The notes under the pieces are model-generated. The model worked only from the letters and a program-made list of their open reading frames with translations. It was not told the origin of the DNA and searched no databases. Shown piece by piece: positions 3,001-56,900 of a DNA stretch of 64,000 nt; position 1 is the first letter of the stretch; each line of letters starts with the position of its first letter. This stretch comes from Beroe forskalii (Eukaryota > Ctenophora > Nuda > Beroida > Beroidae), in the NCBI GenBank assembly GCA_011033025.1, contig WFMF01000019.1, positions 992,001 through 1,056,000 of the forward strand, given 5' to 3'. A program made the translations under genes and the position numbers.

Positions 3001-3240
3001 TTTTGCGTGTAAACATTTAGCGTTTAAATGAGCTTTCATTCCTACCGCACGTCTTCATTTTTGATCTTAAAAATTCAAAAATAGTTGCACTGTTTGTGAA
3101 GTTTTGAAATTTCAATGCATAAGGAAAGTTTCTCCATTTTTGACGCTTTTGAACGCATTCAAATCAAATTTCAGTCTGTTTTGAACTCCCTTTGACTCGA
3201 TCCCTTATTATCAGAATTTTCAGAAAGCAATCCACCTGAC
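1..3240. other. Intergenic DNA, no gene recognised
   Basis: I see no convincing exon here; the short open frames lack homology, signal peptides or splice partners. Two stretches, near 1491 and 1677-1696, carry TGATAATGACG-type sequence belonging to the dispersed CRE-like repeat described further on. The sequence directly before 3245 ends in TTTTCAG, so a 5' untranslated exon of the next gene could lie in this region. Confidence 0.5.
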
Positions 3241-3244
3241 GGCA

Positions 3245-3667
3245 ATGATCCTCCTCCTTTTGACCCTCTCCACTCTCCTTCTCCACCTCTCTCACTCCGG
3301 AACATTCCAGATCATCGCCTGCTTTGACACAAAGTGCCCTGTTTCATCCGAGGATCTGCAGACTATAGTCAGATACGAGGACTGTGAGCGATCCATGTCT
3401 CGTGCAGTGTTTTGTGATAAAGACACGGAACTCTGTGTCCACAACCCCATGACAGGACAAGCATCGTGTGTCCTGAGAGCTGTCCCTACTGAGTCTTCTG
3501 TCCGGGGACGGGAGGAGGAGCTGTCCATCCTGTCCATTGTCATGCCCCTCGCTATCGTCCTGCTTCTGCTGTGTTCGGTGTTGTTGTGGCGCTATGGGGG
3601 TCATGTGACTTACTGGTATCACCTGAGTTCAAGCCGTGTCAGCCCCTTATTCACTCCCACTACTTAG
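3245..3667 (+). CDS. Six-cysteine type I membrane protein, paralogue 1 (short tail)
   Basis: A 140-residue single-exon protein of no known family. Residues 1-19 are a strongly hydrophobic signal peptide. Residues 26-75 hold six cysteines (26, 31, 47, 57, 64, 75) spaced C-x4-C-x15-C-x9-C-x6-C-x10-C. A membrane helix spans about 93-116, followed by a tail of only about 24 residues. The motifs CFDTKC, IVRY and CVHNPM are shared with the genes at 4756 and 6747, so the three form a tandem family on one strand. The start is the first ATG and opens the signal peptide. The likely role is a small cell-surface receptor or ligand-binding protein; this is inferred from topology only. An AATAAA follows about 130 bases after the stop. 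Confidence 0.75.
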   Translation: MILLLLTLSTLLLHLSHSGTFQIIACFDTKCPVSSEDLQTIVRYEDCERSMSRAVFCDKDTELCVHNPMTGQASCVLRAVPTESSVRGREEELSILSIVMPLAIVLLLLCSVLLWRYGGHVTYWYHLSSSRVSPLFTPTT

Positions 3668-3803: not shown

Positions 3804-4755
3804 TTATTTTCCGTCCTGACAATTTTATGCCCTGACATTTGACAATCTCTCAAGTAGAACATGCAAGCACCTGTAGTAATCCCCAGTACATATCACATTA
3901 TGAATATTATTCCGTTCTCGATGAGAACGGAATGCAAGATTTTCCTGCAACATCATGATATTCCACGAATTCAGTATAAAGAATTCGATATGAAATTGAT
4001 AAGGAAATCGTATTTGCATAAATTTCTGCTGAATCCGTCGCATAAAAGCGGATAAATTTGTTTGATAGAATTATTAGTGTAAATATTCCCAAATATCCTC
4101 ATCTCGTCGGACCTCGCAAGTATTTGTGACACCGATGCTATTGAAAGCAGTCTTCAATTTTAGTTTTTGGTCATGCTTAAATCATTAAATGGCTCAAAGT
4201 AAAATAATTACTTCATAGACATTTATTTGACAATGAAGCGCGTAAGATATCTATTTTATTTATTTTTAGAAAAAGTCGAAACAGCCGCAACCCCGTCCAA
4301 AAACCTCTCTTAAAATAGCGAATCAACCCGGATTGATTCATCCAATTCGGGGCCAAGATTCTCTCTCGTTCAAACGTTATAACATCATCTCACACTTTGA
4401 GAGCTATGCAAACGCCCTCGCTTAACTCTGACATTATCAGCAGAGCTCTCAAATTCCTTTGAATAAAAGCATAACCATAAAAGCATAACCATGGTTGCGT
4501 TTAACATTTGTTTAAACATTTATTTGCATTAAATATTCTTCAGTCACTCTGAAACCATTCAGTCCTCCGTATTGTTATGTTGCCATGGCCTTTAGCTGTG
4601 ATCATCAGACATTTTTGAATTTCATGCTTCATTTCTTAGCCGCGATATAAAACCTTGACTCTTAAGAGTCCTAAGATCCTTGATATTATGATAATTTGTT
4701 TCAGTTTATTAAACCAATGACTGAAAAGGATGTTTCACAAGTTTGTTCTTTGGTG
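3804..4755. other. Spacer between paralogues 1 and 2
   Basis: AT-rich spacer with no supported gene. It contains a short palindromic stretch around 3913-3935 (CCGTTCTCGATGAGAACGG). An open frame reaches back from paralogue 2 to 4696, but the signal peptide begins at the methionine at 4756. Confidence 0.4.
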
Positions 4756-5349
4756 ATGGGTCTCTTGAAACAGTTTATCATCACCTCCCTCCTCCTCCCC
4801 TGCGTCTCTGGGAGACGCTTCAGTTCCATCCTGTGTTTTGACACGAAATGTGAGGTTATCTCCGATGATCATGAGCACATAGTCCGGTACGTAGCCTGCG
4901 ATCCCTCCATGGAAAGGGTCGTGTTCTGCAACGAGGAAACAGAGACCTGCGTCCATAACCCCATGACAGGAAAAGGGATCTGTCAGCCGATCCCTACCAA
5001 CCCTCCCACAGAAGCTGCATCTCTTCTGACAGAGAAACAGGAACTGATCCTGATGATAACCCTCCCCCTCGCTCTGATAATCCTCATCCTCCTCATCATC
5101 ATCTGTTGGTGTGCTGTGAAGAACGTAGCCTGTTTCCGGAAGAAGAGGAGGAAGTTCCTGCCCAGTTTCATTGAGGTGGACACGGTTATCCGGAACATCT
5201 GCGTGAGGACGCCCCCGCCGGCCTGGGTTTCTAACTTCGCTAATTTCTACGAGCTTGAGGACAGAACACCCGTTTCTTCAGGGGGCAAGATGTACGATTC
5301 CGGCTCGAGTTTTGGGAGTGTGATTGAGAACCCTTATGTGAGTTGCTGA
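4756..5349 (+). CDS. Six-cysteine type I membrane protein, paralogue 2 (medium tail)
   Basis: A 197-residue protein from the chosen start at 4756. A longer frame begins at 4696, but only the methionine at 4756 gives a normal signal peptide (residues 1-19, MGLLKQFIITSLLLPC...). The ectodomain has the same six cysteines (27, 32, 48, 58, 65, 76) in the same spacing as its neighbours. The membrane helix is about residues 97-121. The tail is about 75 residues: first basic (FRKKRRKF), then with a tyrosine in an NFYELED context and a C-terminal NPYVSC. The ectodomain is closer to paralogue 3 than to paralogue 1. No introns are seen in the coding part. Function is unknown; the conserved outside and diverging inside suggest a shared ligand type with separate intracellular outputs. 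Confidence 0.75.
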   Translation: MGLLKQFIITSLLLPCVSGRRFSSILCFDTKCEVISDDHEHIVRYVACDPSMERVVFCNEETETCVHNPMTGKGICQPIPTNPPTEAASLLTEKQELILMITLPLALIILILLIIICWCAVKNVACFRKKRRKFLPSFIEVDTVIRNICVRTPPPAWVSNFANFYELEDRTPVSSGGKMYDSGSSFGSVIENPYVSC

Positions 5350-6746: not shown

Positions 6747-7712
6747 ATGTGGATAGGGAGCCTTGTTTTCGTTTTCGAAGCACTGTTGTTTGAGACTCTG
6801 TCTAAAAATCAGCAAGCTACTCTGTGTTTTGACACAAAATGCGAGGTTACATCAGATGTTCACGAGGACATTGTCCGGTATGTAGACTGTGAACCATCCA
6901 TGAACCGCGTGGTTTTCTGTAACTCTGAGACGCAGGTCTGCGTCCACAATCCAATGTCAGGAAAAGGAATCTGCCAGGCAATTTCAACAGATCAGCCACC
7001 GACTGAAGCTTCAGATAGTTTGACCGGGAGACAAAAACTTATCCTTGTAATAGCCATCCCTCTCCTTTTCATTATCGCTGTATTATCTTCCTGCGCGTTT
7101 TGGTTGTGTCGGAAATCTTCCAAATGGTGTTTCCAAGTTGAGTTGTACGAGAAGGAAAAGGAAGGTGAATGCAATGTTTACCAAGACCCCCCACCCGCCC
7201 AGCCCCCACTGCCCCCCACTTCAGTTTGTAGTCCAGGTGAACAGTCACTTTCTGACACCGAATCCGCTGAGAATATATACGAAAATATCTACGATAGTTT
7301 GGAGGACATGGTTAATGATATTTTCGGAGACTTTCACTTGCAGCAAGAAGTTGAAGTTGACAGTGGTGTAACTCTAAGTCAACATGGTCATGTTTATCAT
7401 TCCAATAGTGATACTCACTCTGATGTTTATCCCGCCAACAGTGATAATCACTCAGTTAGTTTTAGTGGTGATCATACTCATAGTAGCATTGAACTTGAAG
7501 TTGAACTTGAACAAGAAGATAGAGTAGAGCCCAGTTCTGCTCCAAGACATGTTGGTTCAGGCACATCAGGTCGTTGTTTTTCCGATGGGAGTAAAACGTC
7601 TGATAGTTTTACTTTTACCAAGTACCGCAGGGCAGGGTCAGTGATCATGATGAATCCCCGGGCTGGGAGTAGAAGTGAGGAAACGGTTAAAAAGTTCTTG
7701 GGTAATTTCTGA
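6747..7712 (+). CDS. Six-cysteine type I membrane protein, paralogue 3 (long tail with tyrosine motifs)
   Basis: A 321-residue single-exon protein. A hydrophobic N-terminus (about 1-16) acts as signal peptide or anchor. The six cysteines (27, 32, 48, 58, 65, 76) keep the exact family spacing, and a membrane helix lies at about 97-121. The cytoplasmic tail, about 200 residues, is far longer than in the two paralogues. It holds a proline-rich run (DPPPAQPPLPP, about 147-157) that could bind SH3 domains. Two tyrosine motifs, YENI and YDSL (Y178 and Y182), lie directly next to each other. A His/Ser/Asn-rich stretch with repeated NSD-H-S elements and an acidic segment follow. YENI fits the GRB2-type pY-x-N SH2 ligand and both fit the YxxΦ sorting motif. 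A signalling receptor role is inferred; no family name is known to me. Confidence 0.75.
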   Translation: MWIGSLVFVFEALLFETLSKNQQATLCFDTKCEVTSDVHEDIVRYVDCEPSMNRVVFCNSETQVCVHNPMSGKGICQAISTDQPPTEASDSLTGRQKLILVIAIPLLFIIAVLSSCAFWLCRKSSKWCFQVELYEKEKEGECNVYQDPPPAQPPLPPTSVCSPGEQSLSDTESAENIYENIYDSLEDMVNDIFGDFHLQQEVEVDSGVTLSQHGHVYHSNSDTHSDVYPANSDNHSVSFSGDHTHSSIELEVELEQEDRVEPSSAPRHVGSGTSGRCFSDGSKTSDSFTFTKYRRAGSVIMMNPRAGSRSEETVKKFLGNF

Positions 7713-7982: not shown

Positions 7983-8756
7983 GTGCTTTCTAATGGAAAG
8001 AGCGCGCGCGTCGTGCTTTCCTTGGAAAGTGCGCGCGCGTCGTGCGTTCCTTGGAAAGTGCGCGCGCGTCGTGCGTTCCTTGCGCGCGCGTCGTGCTTTC
8101 CTTGTGCGCGCGTCGTGCTTTCCTTGGAAAGTGCGGCCGCGTCGTGCTTTCCTTGGAAAGTGCGCGCGCGTCGTGCTTTCCTTGGAAAGCTAAAGTGCGC
8201 GCGCGTCGTGCTTTCCTTGGAAAGTGCGTGCGCGTCGTGCTTGCCTTGGAAAGGGCGCGCGCGTCGTGCTTGCTTTGGAAGGGGCGCGCGCGTCGTGCTT
8301 GCCTTGGAAAGGGCGCGCGCGTCGTGCTTTCCTTGGAAAGTGCGCGCGCGTCGTGCTTTCCTTGGAAAGTGCGCGCGCGTCGTGCTTTCCTTGGAAAGTG
8401 CGCGCGCGTCGTGCTTTCCTTGGAAAGTGCGCACGCGTCGTGCTTTCCTTGGAAAGTGCGCGCGCGTCGTGCTTTCCTTGGAAAGTACGCGCGCGTCGTG
8501 CTTTCCTTGGAAAGTACGCGCGCGTCGTGCTTTCCTTGGAAAGTACGCGCGCGTCGTGCTTTCCTTGGAAAGTGCACGCGCGTCGTGCTTTCCTTGGAAA
8601 GTGCGCGCGCGTCGTGCTTTCCTTGGAAAGTGCACGCGCGTCGTGCTTTCCTTGGAAAGTGCGCGCGCGTCGTGCTTTCCTTGGAAAGTGCGCGCGCGTC
8701 GTGCTTTTCTTGGAATGTGCGCGCGCGTGGTGCTTCCCTTGGAAAGTGCGCGCGAG
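7983..8756. repeat. GC-rich 29-bp minisatellite, about 26 units
   Basis: The period is exactly 29 bases (for example unit starts at 8341 and 8370). Each unit joins an alternating GCGCGCGCG tract to TCGTG and then CTTTCC-TT-GGAAAG, an inverted repeat with a two-base loop. Early units are variable and some truncated; units from about 8320 on are nearly identical. Because 29 is not a multiple of 3 and the unit has no stop in most frames, long open frames appear in several frames on both strands. These are artefacts, not genes. The block is far richer in GC than its surroundings. Confidence 0.9.
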
Positions 8757-12283: not shown

Positions 12284-15200
12284 ATGGTTTTAGAGAGGTT
12301 TCTACTGCTCCTGTGTGCTATTGAACTTGTTATAGCTGATGGAGCTCTTCAGACAATTCATCATCTAATAAGGAAGCGAAGTCCTTATGACATGGTTGAT
12401 TTTACACCAGAGGTGAGAACAATGTTTAAGTTTAGTAATGTATTATATACCATATACATACACACCAATCATACCTGCTTGGTATTCATTCTCTTTGTTT
12501 AATAATGAATGGATTAGAATTCAGACGCCAAAATGGGAACATGCTTTGCTCATTTTGATTCATTAACATACCCCCTTTCAGTGTACTCAAGAGTTGGGGA
12601 CCATTAATACCAAGTGCTTGTCTAACATTAATTCCTTCTATGAAACTTATTCTGTGAGTTATTATTCATTTATTTGTCTTTCTACATAATATGTTGTAAT
12701 AAACATATGCTATTAGCATAATTGTCTCATACATCACACAAATTGTATTTCAATCCAGAGTATGAACTCCATCTGTTAGCAATGACTTGAATTGATTTCA
12801 AACTGTATGTACTACACATTATTGAGCCTTACATTAGAATATTCTATCAGGAACTAGAACGTGCAGCTGTTGATGAATGGGAGTCACAGTGCTTGAATAA
12901 TATGTATGATTGTTTATCTAGTCCTGACCCCCATATGAAAGAGGTTAGGATATATTTCTGCAGCTTATAATTTGATGATATTCAATTCAATATTGATATG
13001 GTATGAAGAGACTTGTGAAGAATGGATCAGATGATAGACTTTGATTTAGAGTTATTGAGTTTTTGGGGGTAAATCACTAATGTGGGGAAATTCATCTAAG
13101 CAATTAAATCCTAACTAAATGGTTACTTGATGATCAACATTTCAGGTTATAAAGTATTATGAAATTCTGTTGCCAAGAGTTAAAGCCCTGTGCTCAGATG
13201 GTTGTATGCTCCCTATCATCAATATTATTCATGCATGTTTGAAGCAGGTAATGTTGTTTTAGACACCTGACAAATTTTGTCATCATTATTTATTTCATTT
13301 ATGTTATACATATATCAAAGGGTTTTGCTGGACATATTATATTAATTATCAAGTAAACCCGATTTAAGTTGTCATTGATTTTAACTTTCGTCTATTATCT
13401 AATTATAGGTTTACTTTATAATGGCTATGTTCTATTTCAGTCCTTCCTAGAAAGCATATCAATAAGCCGATCAGAGATGGAATCAATATTCGATCTTTTA
13501 TGCATTCAAGAAGGTAATTCAATATCCATAATTCAATTTCCCAATTACTTTCTATATAACCATGCAAAAAGAGATTATTTCTTTAATTCGCTACGCTCAA
13601 ATGCTAGTTAGAAGAAAGTGGTATGCCAGTAATTGTACAAGTCTGGTTTCGGTGAGTGGCCGTATATTATATCCACGTCATATGACTAGTAACCACGGCA
13701 AATTGCTGGATATATGATATCCAGCAGCCCTTCTCTGCTACTGCTATACGAATTGTGAATATATGAACATGTTTTTATTCTGTGAAATGAACCCTTGATA
13801 ACCCTCAAGTCCTTATAAGAACCTTTAAAACTCAGGTCCAAAGGAGAATGGTGATGAGGGGGAGTATTGCATCATCAAAGCCATGTCCACTGCAACTTAC
13901 CTCCTTGAGGCTAACAGAATACAGGTTAGTTAAATTCAATTACAGTTTGTTGATTAGTTCTAATATGATTTTAAAATTATATTTGCAGTTTGTTAATTAG
14001 TTTTAATGGTTTAAGGATCATATATTGCAGTGCACGCACTTGTGATGAAACATGAGCTGTTGTCCATGCTCATCATTTATAACTCCTAAACAATTGAATA
14101 TTTATCCACATATTTATCATTATTTAATTCTCATTTCTCAAAAGATCATATGATCATATTTTCAACACACAGATCATTGCAGTCAGCTATTTTTTCTTTT
14201 GCTCTTCAAACAAAGCCCTTGAATTTGTAACTTAATCCTCACTCTCACTCAAACTCGTGTATCATGTGTGAATATTCTAAAATTATGCTATGCAACTTAT
14301 AAAATGTACATCCGAGTTTTGGAAGATTAAAATGTGAGGTATTTGTAGAGGAAGGGGGAATAATGCTGGAATTCAAGATATTCTGTAGAATTATATTATT
14401 ATTGTGTGCTGCGTATGTTTGAGGTATTAGCCTGTCACAGAATAAGTTACAAGAATACAATCTGGGTTTGTGTTGAGTTACAAGTTGTGAGGTACATGTT
14501 TCTTGTGTCTTTGCATTGATAGGTCCACTGGCTAGCAACACTCAACAGTTAACACAATTTGATGATTGTTGGATGTGAGAGTTTTAAGAGCACGTGTGTT
14601 TGAGCGATGGCAGCTGATTTTCTGTCACTTCAGCCTGTTTAATGAAATGTACAAATCATTATTATGTAAGTCAAGTAAGTAAAGTAAGACATTAATTTAA
14701 TGAGGGACCCTACAAGTGGATCATGCGTGGTAAATGTTGGGTGGTAAAATACTGTGTGGTGAATTTCCAATTTTATTTGAAATATAAAATGTGGATTTTA
14801 TTTCTTTCACCTTATAAAACTCACAGTTGACGACCAAATACACGATTTAATTTTGATTTACTTATTCAGAGTCCGCAGTAAGTTTCCCAATTATTAAAAC
14901 ACACTCCGATTTGACTTTTCACACCCCTCGGCCTCAATATTGCAATTTGGACGGTATAGACTGACTTTTCCCTCAGTATTGCAACCTGGACGGTATATTT
15001 ACTAACTTCTCCCTCAGTATTGCAACCTGGACGGTATATTTACTAACTTCTCCCTCAGTATTGCAACCTGGACGGTATATTTACTAACTTCTCTCTCAGT
15101 ATTGCAACTTGGACGGTATATTCACTAACTTCTCTCTCAGTATTGCAACCTGGACGGAATATTCACTAACTTCTCTCTCAGTATTGCAACCTGGACGGAA

Positions 15201-18200
15201 TATTCACTAACTTCTCTCTCAGTATTGCAATCTTGACGGTATATTCACTAACTTCTCCCTCAGTATTGCAACTTGGACGGTATATTCACTAACTTCTCTC
15301 TCAGTATTGCAACCTGGACGGAATATTCACTAACTTCTCTCTCAGTATTGCAATCTTGACGGTATATTCACTAACTTCTCCCTCAGTATTGCAACTTGGA
15401 CGGTATATTTACTAACTTCTCCCTCAGTATTGCAACTTGGACGGTATATTTACTAACGTCTCCCTCAGTATTGCAACTTGGACGGTATATTTACTAACTT
15501 CTCCCTCAGTTTTGCAACTTGGACGGTATATTCACTAACTTCTCCCTCATTATTGCAACTTGGACGGTATATTCACTAACTTCTCCCTCAGTATTGCAAC
15601 TTGGACAGAGTATATTTACTAAATTCTCCCTCAGTATTGGAATTTGGACGGTTTATTTACTAACTTCTCTCAGTATTGCAACTTGGACGGTATTGACTTA
15701 ACAGCCTGCGATGGGACGCCGGATAACCCTTTGTGTACTTGTGACAAGAACTGCACTATGGTAGGTGCCCATGTACTTCTGTGAAAATGCGTTTGGTTTT
15801 GAGTTTGGGCTGAAAATTCTAAAATTGATTTCGAATATTACATTGCCCTAAATTCTATTCATCGTGTTTTTATGGAATCCTATTTTTCAGCAAATCTATC
15901 AATAATTAATGGTTTTCTCAATTCTCTGCATGAGATGTTACATGTGATAAGATTTGTCATCGTAATTGTAACTACTTGGCACAATATATTGGAATTCATA
16001 TCTGTCATATTTCGTTGATTAACTTTTATCAAGCATCAATGAAATGACAGCATTATAACTTGTATGATTAGATTAGAAGTAAGATTATCTGTGATAATAG
16101 AAGCTATAATTCTATTCAGAGTATTAGATTGAAATGTAAATTTATATGTTACGGTTCGGGGTACATATGGAATGGTTTCACCTTCTATATGTGCGGCCTC
16201 CGGGGTGTAGGTTTCTTGGGCTTGGAGGCCGAAAAATCGTGTGTGGTACACTTTGTATTGCACAATCACCCTTGCCCAACTGATGACCCATGATAGCCCT
16301 TGAGCACTAACTTTCACTTTCAGGCCTTAAATTATTATTAAAATTCATATAATACTTTTAAGCAAGTTTTACTGGAATGATTTTACATAAATACATATTA
16401 ATTGATCTTGCATATTTACGTAGTATATGAATGCACGATGCATATGAATGCACATATAATGGTTCATATTATGTTGCCCTTTACTAACCCTGAGATATGG
16501 ACTGATCGGACTACAGCACTTCTGTACTGTAGTTCATAGATTAAAATATGTAGATTGTCGTAAATGTATACTTGTATGCGGGGGTCAATGTATACAACGC
16601 ATACATTATACTGTGCATACAATCTGGGTTTGTGTTAAGAAATGTATAAGGTATAAGATTGAAGCTGATCAAAACACTTGTAAAAAGCGCCTTTCTTTCA
16701 GTTAATGAAGACAGCTAACGCTCTCATGGGATGCTGTATGGGCACACTGCTGGAGATAGAAAACAGACTCAAGTAAGTCAGGGTTACCAGGTTACAAGGT
16801 AACAGTTACCAGGTTACCAGGTAACAGTTACTTCAGATCGCTCGAGACCAAAATTGCTGCGTTCTCATGACTCAAATCCATCCGAGCACAATGCTTTCCT
16901 GAGTTCGCACGGCGACCTGAACACAATTCTTTCCCTCTTGCGTTTCCCCACAATATAGCAATTGCTATAAATCATGTCGTACCTCCATTGTACTTTTTAA
17001 TGTCAGCACCCTCCAAATCATGTTGCGACTCTTTTGTTGTGCCCGTTAGAGCTCTCTTTAGAGTAATATTTTAGCATACAGCTGTGTAGTGTATACAGTG
17101 TACGCAATCTCTTCTGTTTGGAGGACAAAAGAATAATCAGTGAGAGTAGAAATAGAAATTATCCCGCAGCTGCGAATGATCTGTGCCAACATTTGTAAAG
17201 AGGGCATATTGATTGAACTTTGTGTCCTCAGAACTGCAATCAGAGAAGTTCGCATCGCGAAATACATTCAAGCCCTGGGGGTCCTTTCCGAAATATAACA
17301 AAAAATCTCTTTTTTGATAAAAACCATTCCCAAACTCCGCTCAAGTTCCCCAACTAATACGATCCTGTTTCAATATGTCACATCCAGATCAATCTGACCT
17401 GCTGAGTCCAGGAAACAAGCTCTTTACTTTGTGCGATGTCGCACCTGGCGAATCCTGTAAGGTATGTACAGAATATCCGTGTAGAGCTTTATTTCATTTC
17501 GTAATGTAGAGCTTTATTTCATTTCATTTTATTTTGTAATGTCGAATTAAATTTCATTTTGTATAGTAGTTGAATTTTGTCAACTGAATAATACAACAAC
17601 ATAATTCTGCGAACAGTGTAATTTTGTATATTTCTGCATTGTTCAATGAATACTCACAATGCGTGTACTGTTGTTAAATTTATTCAATTATTTACGTGAA
17701 CAGGACAAAATTGCATATTTTTCTCGAAATGGACCCCTGTAATTTTTGTAGCGAACTTTAGGTTGTTTGGAATTATAATTTTAACAGGTAATCTTAAGCG
17801 ACAATTTGAGAATTTGGTCTCAAATGAATTGCAGTTCCTTGTACTCTGTGGTATGCAGAATACTTCTGGTATTTGACGCTAAATCGCCATTTTTGTTTCA
17901 GTCCTCTGCGGAAGTGATCGCCACGCAGGAGCAGCAATATGCGAACTGTTACAGCGCCCTCAGAGCAAACTCCGAGTCTGAGTGTATTGCTCTAGAGGAC
18001 GAAGTTCATGTGAGTTGCGATATTATGTAGTCGTACTTACCTTAGGAGGTTTACTTATAAAGGACAAAGGTTGTATTTTGGGGATTTTTCAGAAAAATCC
18101 CCATTTTATCACCCACCATGACATTTCGAAATGACGTCATTATCATTTGTTAATAACAAGAGTAATAACTTGAAAAATCCCCATATTTTCAACTTACCAA

Positions 18201-27991: not shown

Positions 27992-30900
27992 TTACTTTTC
28001 CTTGAGGAACGCTTTGTCGATGTACTTCTTGTTGATAAAAACACTCCTCTCCTCCCTTGAAATTGAGATGGAAATCAGTAAATTTCAACTTTCAAGTGTC
28101 GAGGGTGTAGATGAGGGTGTTGGTAAGGGTGTAAGGAGGTTTTTACTTTTTAGTCAAACAAAAGAATATTGATTAACGTTAAAAATGACACTAGCGGTAA
28201 ATTATTTAATGATACCACTCAACTTTCGAAACGAAAATTTTGTTTAAGATTCAAAATTATTGAACAACCCTTTTCCCACAGTTTATTCTACTAAAAATGA
28301 CAAACTCTCATATCTACGAGAACCCTTGTCTAACGCAAGACCAGAACACCCCACAGTCTCCAAGTCGGGGAACCAGCTATCAAGGAAACCAACCCTGAAA
28401 CTACACCAAATTACGGCACTTTGCTCAGACTTGGCACTTTGCCCGACCCTGAGACTTTGCCCAAACCTCTGCCACAGATAGCACTGTCGGAAGACACAAA
28501 CGCTTGCTTTGAAAACGGAATCAAGAACTGCAGTTTCACCTTCTTCCTTGTTACCCTCGCTGTGTCACTCGGCGGAGCACTCCAGTTTGGTTTTGCTCTG
28601 GGTACCATGACCAACACATTCTCCATAATACAGCAGTCATTGCGAGTCTCGGACACAGTCATGAGTTGTGTGGTGGCAGCCAACCCGGTGGGGGGTTTAG
28701 TGGGTGTCGTGATAGCTGGAACCATGACAGAAACACTGGGTCGGAGAGCTACTATTATCCTAAACGCTGTTCCTTATCTCCTGGGCTGTTTTCTCGTGGC
28801 CCAAGCCTCGCATTACGCGATGCTGATAGCTGGTAGGATTATTATCGGGGTTGGGGTCGGGATAGGATCCATCACCACTACCGTGATTCTGCCGGAACTG
28901 TCCCCAGTCTCCATCAGAGGCGGGGTCGGGGCTCTCTGGGGCTTCATTTTGTCCGTGGGAACGTTGGTAGCGTTTGCCCTCAGCATTCCCGAAGTGATCG
29001 GGGAGGGTGACACTGGTTGGCGACTGTTCATGGCTTTCCCTATTCTGCCAGCCCTGTTTCAGAGCGTGATCCTGTTTTTCTGCCCTGAATCGCCTCCTTT
29101 CATTGCTCATAAAAGCAATGACTCAGAAAAAGCAGCAAGAGCACTAGCTTTTTACAGAAAGCACCTTCTGAAAACAGAGCTTGATTCGTTAGACGAACAG
29201 GCGCGTGGGGCTAATGTCATTCCATTATCTTACAAGCATATTCTAACCGACCCCGGCCTGAGGCTGATCCTAATGGTGGGGTCTGGGTTGATGGTGGCAC
29301 AACAGTTATCCGGAATCAATGGCATCTTGGTGTACAGCAACGAAATCTACACACAGGCTGGTGTAAGTAATCCGATGATGGCTGTTACGGTTTCCGGCGG
29401 AGTTCGGTTAATTGGCACTGTCGTAGCCATATGGCTCAATGACAAAATAGGACGGAAGATTCTGATGTGGGTTGGAATGTTCGGCATTTCGCTAAGCTGC
29501 CTCATGATAGCTGTGTCGCAGATTTGTGCTGGTGGAGTTTGGAGCTGCCAAGCGGACTGGAATGGGATAGTTGGCCTCACATTCCTCCTCACCTACGCCA
29601 CCTTCTTCGGTCTCAGTGCTTCAGCAATTCCTAACATATTCGTGGGGGAAGCCTTCCCTGTTGACGCTAAAGGAAAAGGCTGCAGTATGTGTGTAACCTT
29701 CCAATGGGTTTTACACATTATCATCCTGATTTCATTTGATTCTATCGACAGAGCCTTGGCTCCTTACACATTCTTTCTCTTCACGGGCATTACATTCATC
29801 TCTGCCGTGGCCGTTATTCTGTTCATGCCTGAGACACGACTTAAAACTAGTGAACAGATTGCAAGGGAAGTAGATCTGCAGGCTCGAAAGGCGATACCAA
29901 CTGTGTTTTGATTTTAAAAGCGTGTTCTGAAAGTAAATTGTCGTACGTTGTATGACCCGCTGACGCCAGCCGAGAAGCGGCTGGCGCTGATTCTCACGAA
30001 GGTCCTTCAACGGCCGACAGGAAGTAAATATTTACGAATATTAGCAGTTTATCGTAAAAATGGATTTACTGGCTGAATATTTGCGAAAATTCACTCTCTT
30101 GACTCTTCCTAGTGTTCTACCGTGAACTGTCCACGAAATGAAGTCGAAATTATGTCGATAAGGTATATACTGTTAACTCTAGTCTCTAACCAGCAACTCT
30201 CCAAGTTGATATCGCTTTGTTGCACACCACTTTAAACACTCCATATCAGTTTATATTGTGAATAATGAATTTTCATTGCAAATTTTATGATATTTTGATT
30301 GATTCCAATTGTGTCATACCTGAATGAAGTCGAAATCCGGATGATGTGCGGCGAATTTATTGCGCAGCGCGCGCGTTTAATTAAATAATTGCCCAATATG
30401 CGCTGTGAAACTCTACAAATGGTTTTCGCGTATTCCATTAATTCCAAATATAAAATGTGCCATTGTGCCACAAAGTGATGGGGTAAGAATGACACGGAAT
30501 CGAAGACCTTAAACATGATTGTCATACTTTAATTCAACCCAATATTATTCATTTAAGATTCTTCATCCTTGTAGGCGATAAATGCTCAACTGCTGTAGCC
30601 AGACGGAAAGCTCTTGATCGAGTGGAGAGATTTCCATTCTTAACTCACTAATTTCATAGCTAATATTGTGAGACTCTAGCTGATTCTACAATTCAAACAT
30701 CCTTCAGGATGGATCCAGAAAGTAAACGATCTTAACTACCTTTTAATACTTGGCATTTAATAGCATATTCAACTTTTATATGACTTAAAAAAGTCAAAAT
30801 GGTGCAGGTATGCATATGTCAGTATGTCATATGCAAAAGATAACCCTTATAACGATATGTAGGACAAACCTTGAGGAGGAAGGGTTGATTTTGTCTGATA

Positions 30901-48800: not shown

Positions 48801-49554
48801 TTTTATTCAGTGTATTTTTTTTAATTTATCTAAATTATTTGAAGCATTCGAAATTCATGTTTCCCAGTTGTTAATTAATGCTCTGGTTAACACTCCTTTT
48901 TATTATTGCAGGTTTTGTTTTCTAGATATAATTTTAATATTCAATATCTCATTAGTGGCTGGAAGATCCAGTTAAAGTGGAAGTTTGAAGATAGTTTTTA
49001 TGAAAACAGTGTTGATGTGCTTATCAAAACCATTTATTTTATTTTATTTTATTGTGAAAGAAATGAATGTGGGTAACTTGACCTTAAAAGGTACTTCATG
49101 TCAGTGATACAACTTTTCTCGAGATTGGTTTGAATAATCAAGCTGATATCATGTCAAAATTATCATATTCTATTGTTTTCTATAAACATTAATCCTATCC
49201 AACATGCAACTATTCTAGTAACATGGTGGCAATGCATTTTTGTTTCATTCTGAAACTTTTGTTTCATTCTTTTGCTTGTGTGTTTCACACTGATGATTGC
49301 TTGTGTTTGCTTGTTGTGCCTTTGTATTTATAATCATCTAGAATTAATTTCTAGAGTTAATTTCTCAGACTCTACAGTGTGGGAAATAATTCTAAATAAA
49401 GATTGACAAAAATGCAATCTTTCTTTTTCACTTGTCTCAACATCAATTTTCAAAAAACTAATTAATCTCCATTTGAGGAATCAAACAAGAAGAAAGGAGA
49501 GAGGGAGAGAAGTTCGTCCATACTCCTGTTTTATTGTTTCTGAATTAGCCAAAA
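48801..49554. other. Intergenic DNA with a dispersed-repeat fragment
   Basis: AACAGTGTTGATGTGCTTATC near 49008-49028 also occurs near 9560-9581 with its flanking sequence, so part of this spacer is a dispersed repeat. The promoter of the next gene should lie in the last few hundred bases. Confidence 0.35.
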
Positions 49555-51216
49555 ATGGCTATGACAAGTTCCTTTTTTGTGACTTACTTTTTGATAATCA
49601 CATGTGCTACTCAGAGTGACTCAGAGAACTTTTGTTCAAATGACAACTGTGGCATCTTTGCATCATTCTCAGATGATCCTAAGGAATGGATTGCTCCAAA
49701 TGCATTATTTGAATCAAACCAAGAAGAAGTATCTGATGTGAAACTTGAGGTTAAATATGGTCAAATCCCAAACTGGCTGGATGGATCTCTTTATCGTGTT
49801 GGCCCAGGAATATTTGAATATGGAAATAGAAAGGTTAATACAATGGTTGATGCACTGAGCAAGGTTCATAAATGGACATTCAATGATAAAGGTGCTTTTT
49901 TCTCAGCCTCACTTCTTAAAAGCAGTGTCTATAATAGGACTATCAGTAGTGGTAATTTTGTTCCTATACCACATCTTGGTCAAATTGAACCCCCCCTTTC
50001 TAGTTTTGAACAATTCAAAATTCTTTTTTATGATGATAAACCTGACAACAACAACATAGCTCCCTGGAACTTACGAAAATCAAGTGTTACTATCACTGCT
50101 GAAAGTCCTTTATATATAGATATTGATCATCAGACTCTCAATTTCTTAGATAAATATACAGTGAAATCTGATAACACAGGATTCTTTGAAAAGGAAATAT
50201 TATCAGCTAGTCATTTTTGGAGACATCCATCATCAGGTGATAGTATCAATTATAAAATTGTCATACCTTATGACAGGGGTCTTTTGAGTGGAAATGAAGG
50301 TCCAGCGTATCATTTATATCGGTACAGAGAGAATGATGATGGCCAAATGATGGCTAAATTCATTGGGAAAGTTCCAATTAAGAACAATGATATAAGAGTT
50401 GTACATACTCTTGGTGCAACTGAGAATTATGTTGTGTTACCAAGATTTAGTTTATTTGTTGAACTTAATCATCCTGTGGACATATCCCAGAATATAAAAA
50501 TGAAGCCCCTAAGATCCACCACCTTTGATGTTGTATCTTTAAAGGATGGGGAATGGAAATCATTTGTATTTGGTGCTTATTCAGCCCAGCACATTTTCAA
50601 TTCTTATGAGAGGTATAATGAAAATAATGAATTAGAAATAGTGGTAGATTACCCAACAATGGAAGACATCACACATTTCCCTGATAAGAATATCTTTGAA
50701 ATTCTCAACATTAAGAATCTTAAAGATCCAGATTACAGCTATCTGGAAAATTGGGGAGATTTTTCAAAGTTCAGAATTCGGAGATTTATCCTCAACATGG
50801 ATACTGGTGAAGGAAAAATATATGAGTACCCAATCATGTGGTCACCTCAAGATCTAGAAGTTGAATTCCCATGTATTAATGATGCTTACAAGGGTCTACC
50901 ATACTGTTTTGTTTATTTACAAACCTGGAATCATGATGCAAATAATTCTATGGGTCTCATGAAAGTAGATATGTGTTCTGAAAGTAGCATTGGTTGGCAG
51001 GAAAAAAATAAATTTCCTGTTGAGCCTATTTTTGCTGCAAGACCTGGTGCTTCTGATGAAGATGATGGTGTGATTCTCTCACCTGTTCTTGACTCTACTG
51101 ATAATTCAACATCCCTCTATATTTGGAATGCAAAAAATCTGGAAGTTATCACTATTATTAGTACTCCAATCACAGTTCCCTATAGTCTCCATGGCATTTG
51201 GATTAATGGTGTTTAA
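49555..51216 (+). CDS. Carotenoid oxygenase (BCO/RPE65 family) with signal peptide, intronless
   Basis: 553 residues, full length for this family of iron-dependent carotenoid cleavage or retinoid isomerising enzymes. The seven-bladed propeller iron ligands can be placed: a first histidine in SHFWRHP (H220 or H224), H284 in VVHTLGATENY, H346 in AQHIFNSYE and H546 in SLHGIW. The family motifs GSLYRVGPG (about 77-85) and PIFAARPGASDEDDG (about 491-505) are present. The N-terminus is a hydrophobic signal-like segment (residues 1-20) followed by three cysteines, unusual because family members are normally cytosolic or membrane-attached from the cytosolic side. There is no intron, and codon use is AT-rich compared with the MFS and ArfGAP genes. 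The substrate cannot be read from the sequence. Confidence 0.85.
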   Translation: MAMTSSFFVTYFLIITCATQSDSENFCSNDNCGIFASFSDDPKEWIAPNALFESNQEEVSDVKLEVKYGQIPNWLDGSLYRVGPGIFEYGNRKVNTMVDALSKVHKWTFNDKGAFFSASLLKSSVYNRTISSGNFVPIPHLGQIEPPLSSFEQFKILFYDDKPDNNNIAPWNLRKSSVTITAESPLYIDIDHQTLNFLDKYTVKSDNTGFFEKEILSASHFWRHPSSGDSINYKIVIPYDRGLLSGNEGPAYHLYRYRENDDGQMMAKFIGKVPIKNNDIRVVHTLGATENYVVLPRFSLFVELNHPVDISQNIKMKPLRSTTFDVVSLKDGEWKSFVFGAYSAQHIFNSYERYNENNELEIVVDYPTMEDITHFPDKNIFEILNIKNLKDPDYSYLENWGDFSKFRIRRFILNMDTGEGKIYEYPIMWSPQDLEVEFPCINDAYKGLPYCFVYLQTWNHDANNSMGLMKVDMCSESSIGWQEKNKFPVEPIFAARPGASDEDDGVILSPVLDSTDNSTSLYIWNAKNLEVITIISTPITVPYSLHGIWINGV

Positions 51217-53942: not shown

Positions 53943-56900
53943 ATGCTCACATTATGGACATACCAGGTGCCCGACGAAGTTGAGTCTACAGCTGCTCGGT
54001 TCAACAAACACCTGGAGCGGGGTGAGTCGGTGGAGGAAATACCGGTAGAGATAGAATCGCGTTGTGTCAAGATGGAAGGGAGTCTGCACAAGGACGTTGT
54101 GACCAGTGAGACGAAGTACCAGCTCCTGGAACTCTACCGGGTACGTGTTGGGAGCCATGATGCAAGTTCTCACTTGGGCAACTCAAAATTACAAATACTT
54201 CTAGCAAATATACAAAATATATTTGCGATTTGTTAAATTGGACTATTGATGATCCGATGGTGATTACTGTTATGATTTCCCTCTATTTCAGAATTTCCAA
54301 AGCATGCCAGAAGGAAAAGACAAGGATACTAGGCTCAAAAAGGTGATAAAATTCTATGAAAATAATTGATGTAGGTATTAATGTGATAAAATTTTTGATA
54401 GATTATAAAATTTTTGATAGATAAGAAACTTTGATAAACAAGAAGTGACGAAAAGGTGTAACTTCGTTATAACACTGTGCTGTGACGAACAGGTGTTAGT
54501 TGGTCATAATACTATGATGTGATGAACAATTTTCAGTTTGTGCTGAGGCAAAGAGGTTTCAGTTTGTCATAGAGTTGTGCTGTTACAAACCGGTGTTAGT
54601 TCGTCATAACACTGTGCTGTTGTAATTGTCAGTTTTTCATAGAGTCTTAATAACAAAGTGCTGTGACGAACAGGTTTCAGTTTGTCGTGCCCCCTTAAAC
54701 CGGACATGATCTTTTATGTATATTGTAATCTATAAAACACAGTACAAAGTTGCAGCGAATAGACCATGTCATGTCTTGGGGTTTAAAGTAAATATGATTT
54801 ATTGATTTAAAGTAAATATGATTTTACTAAAGTAAATATGAAAGTAAATATGAAAGTAAATATGAAAGTAAATATGAAAGTAAATATGAAAGTAAATATG
54901 AAAGTAAATATGATTAAAGTAAATATGATTAAAGTAAATATGATTAAAGTAAATATGATTAAAGTAAATATGATTAAAGTAAATATGATTAAAGTAAATA
55001 TGATTAAAGTAAATATGATTAAAGTAAATATGATTAAAGTAAATATGATTAAATATGATTAAATATGAAAGTAAATATGAAAATAAATATGAAAGTAAAT
55101 ATGAAAGTAAATATGAAAGTAAATATGAAAGTAAATATGAAAGTAAATATGAAAGTAAATATGAAAGTAAATATGAAAGTAAATATGAAAGTAAATATGA
55201 AAGTAAATATGAAAGTAAATATGAAAGTAAATATGAAAGTAAATATGAAAGTAAATATGAAAGTAAATATGAAAGTAAATATGATTAAAGTAAATATGAT
55301 TAAAGTAAATATGATTAAAGTTATTATGTTATTGTCTTACAAACGTAAAAAAAATATGATTAAAGTAAATATGATTAAAGTAAATATGATTAAATATGAT
55401 TAAATATGATTAAAGTAAATATGATTAAAGTAAATATGATTAAAATAAATACCTTACCTTAGAGTACCTTAGAGTCCGTTTAGCCGGGATCACAGATGGG
55501 CGACGTCAACATGCGAGTCTTCCAAGCCTGCCATTCTGGAACATCTCTGAAGATTCCATTCAAGAAGGCTGTTGCTGTTTACAGCAGTGTATCCTGTTGT
55601 TGGAGGTGTGTCGGGAAAGCTCTCAAGAAATCTTCCCAGAGCCACTTTGAATGAGTCAAGTGTGGACTGTTCGTTTACAGATTTGGGAAGAAGGTTCAGA
55701 GAAGGCTGCTTTCACTCCAAGGAGTTGTGGTAGTGGGTTGCTACGGATCTTTGGGCTTTAGAGTTGAGGCTGGGGACAGCTACCTTCAGGCCTAGCCTTA
55801 GATTCTTCTTGAAGCTCATGCCAATGTCGTTTGGAGCAGCTCCAGTAGCTATTTTCCATGTGTGGATAATAGTGTATCGCTCCTTTACAGCTACTGATTT
55901 TCCTTGTGAAGTTTCGCTGGATGTTTTCGATATCTCTGATATCTTCAACTTTCGCTGGGTTCCAAACAGGGCAGCAGTACTCCAATTTACTCCTCACCAT
56001 TGTCTTGTACAAGGTAATCATGAGTGTGGGGAGTTCTTGTACGGAATACACTGAGGACCCAGGCAGCAACTTTCCTTGTTGATATCAGCATCTTCTGGAT
56101 GTGTGGAGTCCATGAGCAGTCATTTGAGAGCAAAACACCCAGGTCTCTTACAGTTTTGCTGGGCTCAATGGTTGTGCCGTCTGACAAGGTGTAACTGAGA
56201 ACTCTTGGGTAAAAGGCAGGTTCCTTAGAAGCTTAGACTTATTCAAGGAATAGTTCAACAGCTCAAACTTGTTGCCATTCAACTGCATGTTGTTCCACCC
56301 AGTGACCATGCTACAATGTTGTTGAGATCGTCTTGCAGAAGCATGTGGAGATTATGTCACGGATCATGCAGGTAAGTTTTTGTGTCATCGGCGAATATCT
56401 TCCCATCAGCAGCCTTGAGAACATTGATCTGGTCATTAATGTACATGATGAAGAAGATGGGTTAGCACAGTTCCTTGGGGTACTCCACTAATTACTAGCT
56501 GGAATGACGACTTTTCACCTTCAACTACAACAGTTTGGAATCTGATAAGGAGGAACTGGCGTATCCATTGAAGCATCTTGCCACGTATACCGTATCGTTG
56601 AAGTTTTTTGAGGAGGGTTTGAAGATCCACTTTGTCGAAGGCCTTAGCGTAATCGAGATAGATTGTGTCAACCTCCTCACCACTGTTGAGCGATATGATT
56701 TTCGTTTCAATACTGTTGAGCGATATGATTTTCGTTTCAATACCTCATTTTCCAGTATTCTGTTTTTCATGCCCAATTACTACGGCACCACGAATCAATC
56801 CCTCCTCACCCCTCTTTAACTTTCAGTTCGAGAAAGAGTACCCTCACTACATCATGGAGCTAAAGAACCTGAGTCACTCCCCCATGATTCGAACTAAGAG

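Follow-up and report, generated by a model that had tools for sequence, protein, structure and literature searches.

How does an intron come to end in some 19 near-identical copies of its own 3' splice site, and does such an array call for a function? This question is raised by a 64,000-nt stretch of the genome of the ctenophore Beroe forskalii (GenBank assembly GCA_011033025.1, contig WFMF01000019.1, positions 992,001 to 1,056,000 of the forward strand; hereafter the window), in which intron 6 of a predicted gene for a Cys-rich protein ends in a tandem array of 41-bp units that span its junction with exon 7. All positions below are those of the window and lie on the + strand unless a locus is named. 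Our analysis suggests that the array is probably a neutral minisatellite which arose by tandem duplication across the intron 6/exon 7 junction. It appears to be one of a class of arrays located at other acceptors and donors of the same genome, and since such arrays occur there as well, no special function would be needed to account for it.

Structure of the array at the intron 6/exon 7 junction

Minisatellites consist of head-to-tail units of about 10-100 bp, present in many copies of high identity. Tandem Repeats Finder (TRF) reported 18.6 copies of a 41-bp unit with 92% matches at 14932-15693, and the array has the unit size, copy number and identity of a minisatellite. Splitting it into units gave 19 unit starts, the first at 14938 and the last at 15674, and both results bear out the roughly 19 tandem 41-bp copies described in an earlier note on this DNA. 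Each unit begins with 16 bases matching the start of exon 7 (TATTGCAAYYTKGACG, with a few changes); these are followed by GTATAT in most units, by TAC/CACTAAC and by a short pyrimidine tract that ends in CAG. Unit 1 (14938..14976, 39 bp) is diverged and has CAA before it, that is, no acceptor AG. Units 2-15 (14977..15550) are 14 copies of 41 bp, each with the 16 exon bases, GTATAT or GAATAT, TAC/CACTAAC, the pyrimidine tract and CAG, except that the last of them ends in CAT, which is what precedes unit 16 (15551..15591, also 41 bp). Unit 17 (15592..15634) measures 43 bp and has the branch motif CTAAA, unit 18 (15635..15673) measures 39 bp, and unit 19 is formed by the first 16 bases of exon 7 itself (15674..15760, YCNLDGIDLTACDGTPDNPLCTCDKNCTM). 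The repeated unit spans the junction, and the outermost copy continues into an open exon.

An AG precedes 17 of the 19 unit starts (the exceptions are AA at unit 1, 14938, and AT at unit 16, 15551), and a GT stands right after the 16th exon-derived base in 15 of them (GA is found in units 6, 7 and 10, and an insertion shifts unit 17). The earlier note had given every unit a CAG and most units a G-GTATAT; the former needs correcting for units 1 and 16, and the GT of the latter is missing at this place in units 6, 7, 10 and 17. Its YCNLDG codons and its open exon 7 were found as described, exon 7 being open in the joined frame, and its central proposal, that a 3' splice site was amplified together with the start of its exon, is supported. 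ACTAAC occurs 16 times within the array, the AG-to-AG distance is 39-43 nt, and the spacers between units are 23-27 nt long.

A DNA search of the 216-Mb genome, which skips very common words, found the array at one place. When a 17-nt core was searched with at most one mismatch, 26 matches were obtained in the genome (19 in the array and 7 singles elsewhere) versus 3 for the reversed control. Chance is excluded as the source of the array. A transposon or dispersed repeat was rejected in view of the single genomic place and the isolated nature of the 7 other core matches, and a coding array was rejected as well, the frame being unreadable across the array and the longest overlapping open frame comprising 67 codons at the 3' end. 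NAGNAG tandem acceptors have AGs 3 nt apart, and the AGs of the array are 39-43 nt apart. At a recursive splice site (a zero-length exon), the AG is directly followed by GT; here 16 bases separate the two within the units. In addition, no Rfam family reached its gathering score in the window, and RNA structure prediction for a 215-nt piece gave nothing outstanding (z -0.49).

Reading frame and strength of the upstream acceptors

We examined what the use of each of the 17 AG-bearing units would do to exon 7. Extension through units 2-15 and 17 (15 of the 17) runs into an in-frame stop 23-63 codons in, and the frame of exon 7 stays open only with units 18 and 19. The acceptor of unit 18 adds 13 codons in frame (YWNLDGLFTNFSQ), and that of unit 19 gives the plain exon; the earlier view that the last copy alone opens into exon 7 is thus right about unit 19 but overlooks unit 18. 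The reading frame points to the exon-proximal (last) acceptor as the one used. Complete acceptor signals are present in most upstream copies, which are potential decoys; their use would lead to premature stops except at unit 18.

Splice-site scores came from a generic consensus matrix and are crude. By this measure the last copy is the lowest of the 17 (4.1), and the 16 upstream AG copies range from 4.2 to 8.2 (unit 2, 4.2; unit 18, 4.8; the remaining ones at least 6.2); 8.2% of the 25,395 AGs in the genomic sample described below score as high as the last acceptor. If the last copy is used, strength alone would be insufficient as the reason for that choice, which we regard as a lead rather than a result.

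Recurrence of junction arrays in the genome

To place the array among the repeats of this genome, a sample of 223,671 bp was analyzed, made up of the window and 16 further pieces (L016-L031). It contains 19 tandem arrays with at least 5 copies of 15-120 bp, which cover 5.4% of the bases, or 2.7% without L031, where a single minisatellite (L031:4291-9656; 21 bp x ~256) occupies 5.4 kb. When the minisatellites of the sample were scored for acceptors, L021 stood out. It lies about 50 kb upstream of the window, and its units, mostly of 33 bp, have CTGAC and a short tract, the last one leading into a LIM exon (PF00412, E 1.3e-6). CAG was present in 3 of its 10 upstream copies, and L021 would mainly be a branch-point/tract array. 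Another array, L027, resembles a donor array and lies behind a predicted open frame of 34 codons. Accepted junction arrays were therefore 2 of the 18 sample arrays with at least 5 copies, the window array being uncounted; the remaining arrays were checked by script and a few also by eye. Those not accepted include L016:6836, two in L029, L030:8738 (no exon seen) and, by script only, L030:3462. With the window array included, three junction arrays in the sample correspond to 13 per Mb (95% interval 3-39), a rough figure that is biased upward by the choice of the window. When array ends were screened for an exon behind them, 4 of 64 scored at least 20 (two of them from the same L021 array), as did 2.3% of 1500 random places; the score of the window array was low (11.8). 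The corresponding donor screen had no random control, and ab initio gene finding over the 224 kb was too noisy for junction counts.

Pattern searches were made as well. The first pattern, CACTAACN8CAG, had 400 matches versus 324 for its control, an excess that shows little. Tandem CTAACN8CAG had 642 matches versus 89 for the reversed control, a count dominated by a few long arrays, of which at least one, at C161:23k, represents a donor array of the opposite strand. We read the loci on four contigs among the listed matches of the tandem pattern, together with four clusters of at least 3 among the listed matches of CACTAACN8CAG. Six of these eight were junction arrays, located at acceptors (L037, L040, L043 and L045) or donors (L038/L039 and L041). 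The L038/L039 array consists of roughly 100 copies of a 30-bp unit and extends over about 3.3 kb, of which the middle part is covered by listed pattern matches only; another array, branch-point-like, adjoins the acceptor side of the L039 exon. Of the other two loci, L046 was rejected as telomere-like, and L042, with 230-bp units, was not accepted either; in each of the repeats of L042:300-2030, which are about 230 bp long, an AG and a GTGAGA enclose what may be an exon of 31 nt. L044, a single CACTAACN8CAG match among those listed and the one place read among the eight loci retrieved along with that search, is another acceptor array, with 5 copies. A RanBP-type finger in L044 and an LDLa match in L045 both fell under the Pfam cut-offs, and Pfam gave no useful support for the exons of L037, L040 and L043. 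In the donor arrays (L038, L039, L041 and L027), the end of the exon plus GTTAG or GTGAGG is repeated many times downstream of the exon.

A strict tandem pattern (CTAACNNYYYYYYCAG) had 46 matches on 10 contigs and none in the reversed control. Nine of these contigs, including that of the window, were examined (C866 was left out), and on seven of them the last copy opens into an exon (the window, L050, L051, L053, L055, L056 and L057). The L050 exon belongs to an Argonaute gene (PF08699, E 6.5e-15, with Argonautes matched in PDB). The L051 exon has a weak C2H2 zinc-finger match and the L053 exon a weak Cep192-like match; Pfam gave no useful match for the exons of L055, L056 and L057, and the last of these was read as a putative G protein-coupled receptor segment. 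L052 and L054 were not accepted as junction arrays, no exon being resolved in the piece examined. As judged from sequence, arrays of this class, for which we propose the term splice-junction minisatellites, recur at unrelated junctions of the genome.

As for the base rate, about 11 of some 245 distinct acceptor-like sites (~4.5%) have a tandem copy, where 245 is an estimate from counts and the 11 counts two C866 clusters separately. This proportion resembles the repeat cover of the sample, so that a neutral origin at the genome's own rate suffices. Tandem copies were found at none of 77 reversed sites (one-sided p 0.047, or 0.062 when one locus is removed), and a preference of amplification for junctions over other positions is not proven.

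Junction arrays in chaperonin paralogues

Five chaperonin genes were chosen for their introns and not for arrays. One acceptor in L033 nevertheless has an array of 31 bp x 3.7 copies according to TRF, with four acceptor copies recognizable by eye. L049 is a second, inverted copy of this gene on the same contig. The exons of the two are nearly identical, and an alignment, read by eye, showed 4 acceptor copies in L033 versus 1 in L049, and, at another junction, 3 copies of a donor unit in L049 versus 1 in L033. Because nearly identical exons are accompanied by different copy numbers, the arrays appear to come and go while the exons stay the same, and this pair is the nearest substitute for a comparison between species. 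Both paralogues also contain an intron-like insert with direct-repeat flanks of about 18 bases (AGCTTGGGGACTAAATTC), possibly another intron born by duplication.

The chaperonin genes also provided a reference for native splice sites. Eleven of 20 attempted intron joins were accepted, with lengths of 129-614 nt and donor scores of 5.9-10.8; these joins were selected by the same matrix that scored them, which favours high scores. The donor-like GTATAT of the array units scores 3.7. In a native chaperonin acceptor (CCCCACTAACTCCCTTTCATCAG), the spacing from CTAAC to AG is similarly close to that of the array units, and thus the units fit the genome's own style.

The host gene and other features of the window

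The structure of the host gene is a model built from the sequence. Exons 4-8 join in phase with GT-AG ends into one open frame of 140 residues. Exon 1 (12284..12412) follows the ab initio model, with an open frame, the donor GTGAGA and a hydrophobic N-terminus that looks signal-peptide-like by eye. Exon 2 (12582..12653) and exon 3 (12851..12943), both in phase 0, were placed by eye from the sequence, with an acceptor score for the former and splice scores for the latter. Exon 4 (13146..13247) is given by the joined frame and the ab initio model, and exon 5 (13441..13513) and exon 6 (13836..13924; donor GTTAGT, end phase 0) by the joined frame. Intron 6 (13925..15673) is 1749 nt long, and its 3' part is the array. 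Exon 7 starts in phase 0, has the donor GTAGGT and a coding score near zero (0.5), and is followed by exon 8 (16702..16772; donor GTAAGT), likewise placed by the joined frame. The predicted protein is Cys-rich, and a simple gene finder extends the model to a hydrophobic segment and a short tail; the putative signal peptide and membrane segment were judged by eye.

Two other arrays were seen in the window. One at 7994-8754 (29 bp x 26.5) has near-palindromic-looking units (TGGAAAG..CTTTCCT) and is open in several frames on both strands; the other, at 54829-55451, is AT-rich and has 38 copies of a 12-bp unit (AAAGTAAATATG), with a higher-order period of 60 bp. Related Cys-rich open frames, membrane-protein-like and with tyrosine motifs, are located at 3185-3664, 4684-5346 and 6747-7712, and at L024:7658-8137. 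Pfam had no match for the frames at 3185-3664 and 4684-5346, and a SCIMP match below the cut-off for that at 6747-7712. In addition, the window contains long open frames of an RPE65-family gene (49549-51213) and of a sugar-transporter gene (28334-29908).

Origin of the array and competing explanations

The array could have arisen in three steps. Slippage or unequal exchange, perhaps between a TTGACTT in the intron (14911..14917, 27 nt upstream of the unit-1 junction) and another in exon 7 (15693-15699, 3 nt after the repeated 16 exon bases), may have copied the acceptor together with the first exon bases; slippage at TTGACTT would also create a fusion of GGTA with the intron that resembles a donor. 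Each copy would leave an intact junction on the exon, and the protein would stay unchanged as long as the exon-proximal copy is used. Further unequal exchange would then have expanded the array to the 19 intronic copies now present. As expected from unequal exchange, adjacent units of the array differ less from each other than units paired at random (2.14 versus 2.80 differences, permutation p 0.025), and units 5, 6 (or 7) and 8 have exact duplicates in units 9, 10 and 11. Variable sites among units 2-16 fall on 4 of 16 positions of the exon part, 1 of 4 of GTAT, 0 of 3 of the spacer, 1 of 7 of the branch motif, 2 of 8 of the pyrimidine tract and 1 of 3 of CAG; small as these numbers are, they give no sign that the splice signals are more conserved than the 16 exon bases.

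Among the readings offered by the earlier note, that of a neutral minisatellite born at a junction fits best, because tandem repeats with at least 5 copies cover 2.7-5.4% of the sampled genome, similar arrays are found at other junctions, near-identical paralogues of another gene differ in copy number, and the few variable sites show no visibly better conservation of the splice signals. A splicing timer or a functional choice among acceptors may exist, but nothing in these results speaks for it. Several points weigh against the neutral reading. The borderline excess over reversed sites leaves room for a bias towards junctions. The TTGACTT birth point is suggestive and a weak point of the scheme: TTGACTT was found in a 60 x 40 frame, for which 215 of 2000 random pairs had a shared 7-mer or longer; the number fell to 16 of 2000 for a 30 x 12 frame, but that frame was set afterwards. 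A model in which strength decides would not pick the last acceptor, the lowest of the 17 by the generic matrix, whose use is predicted from the reading frame. The chaperonin pair comes from one genome only. Pfam had no match for the 140 residues of the host protein, and no paralogue of the host gene was found in the genome, the sole match elsewhere (E 3.16) being set aside; hence the host exons rest on splice signals and frame continuity, and many other array-linked exons have weak or no Pfam support.

These last facts would also suit a wrong gene model or a dead gene, with the array unlinked to a working exon, as would the low coding score of exon 7. Such a case appears improbable: exons 4-8 are in phase with GT-AG ends and one open frame, the gene finder extends them downstream to a hydrophobic segment, and arrays of the same kind adjoin Argonaute, LIM and chaperonin exons. 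The array might instead act on the expression of a working gene as a splicing rheostat, in which the use of upstream acceptors leads to a stop in exon 7 and nonsense-mediated decay (NMD), and copy number sets the protein level. The stops to which all AG acceptors but those of units 18 and 19 lead (15 of 17) and the scores of the upstream AG copies (4.2-8.2, versus 4.1 for the last) are in line with this. In the human ABCA7 variable number tandem repeat (VNTR), length correlates both with lower expression and with exon skipping, and RNA is described in which a single unit is retained (PMC5954066). However, the stops are expected by chance, as 41 bp does not divide into whole codons and one of the frames of CTAAC contains TAA. 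Moreover, the added length modulo 3 equals 0, 1 and 2 in three arrays each among the 9 of 14 in which a script found a close upstream copy (the window array is one of the 5 without a hit at the threshold of the script), and variable sites hit the exon part and the splice signals alike. We consider the rheostat unlikely.

Two further proposals give the units themselves a role. The array RNA could be a multi-site target of a STAR protein acting on exon 7 splicing: it contains 16 bipartite elements, whereas the next densest 762-nt stretch of the sample, on either strand, has 6, and competition at two ACUAAC elements is described for RAI14 (PMC13004596). Yet a motif in one unit means a motif in all, so the 16 copies amount to one event; L021 has CTGAC, and L037 has CTAAC without ACTAAC, although L040 and L043 do have CACTAAC. 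The STAR dimer domain PF16544 had no match in this genome, but none in control genomes either. A role of this kind seems very unlikely. The earlier note had also likened the units to 16-base microexons with their own donors. Spliced as such, or partly retained, they might add repeats to the protein. Most units do have an AG before and a GT after the 16 bases, and the simple gene finder called some of them exons. Against this, the spacers of 23-27 nt are far from the 129-614 nt of the 11 accepted introns, GTATAT scores 3.7 versus 5.9-10.8 for their donors, 16 is not a multiple of 3, and the extensions run into stops; the units can hardly be real microexons.

Relation to known systems and implications

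Duplication across splice junctions has precedents. In a potato gene, a new intron was made by duplication across an intron-exon boundary (PMC4974935). The piece duplicated there comprises the 3' side of an intron, with a putative branch site, pyrimidine tract and AG, as well as the 5' part of the exon that follows, and an exonic cryptic GT becomes the donor. That case involves one duplication and a new spliced intron, whereas the 19 copies here seemingly lie inside an old intron, and their would-be donor is weak. The same paper cites genes of fission yeast in which introns extend across an exonic 24-bp segment present as two or four duplicates. In human segmental duplications, minisatellites with units of about 30 bp, some of them at exon-intron boundaries, alter intron structure (PMC2812944); these have 4 units on average and were sought among recent paralogues, whereas the array reported here has 19 copies and the other arrays of this genome have 4 to roughly 100. 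The VNTR in ABCA7 intron 18 is located near an exon and has a 25-bp unit that starts with a splice donor, and retention of units leads to a premature stop (PMC5954066); there each unit carries a donor, and here most units carry an acceptor. In RAI14, SF1 competes with Quaking at tandem ACUAAC branch sites (PMC13004596). More than one usable ACUAAC likewise precedes the exon there, but there are two such sites rather than 16 in units that mostly have their own AG. At NAGNAG sites, several acceptors compete before one exon (PMC3250501), 3 nt apart rather than 39-43 nt apart with a branch motif each.

Junction minisatellites as such are already known in humans; the main new result is the recurrence of such arrays in one genome. 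Among the open-licence papers listed by our searches, we recognised none on arrays of tens of acceptors or on their recurrence in one genome. The choice of the spliceosome among near-identical sites has usually been studied with two-site constructs. In this genome, natural ladders of acceptors or donors, with 4 to roughly 100 near-identical copies, adjoin coding exons, and the reading frame indicates which copy must be used; the near-identical gene pair adds a contrast in copy number. Such ladders may help to tell whether position, exon definition or transcription order decides site choice. A more far-reaching view, in which junctions are preferred for tandem amplification in this lineage, the exon-proximal copy is used as a rule, and copy number provides tunable NMD decoys in many genes, is at present rather unlikely. 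If it is true, the exon-proximal-copy rule would allow introns to accommodate strong acceptors or donors in tens of near-identical copies. The arrays show how introns may grow, and how potential splice sites may arise, by duplication of a junction while the exon stays intact.

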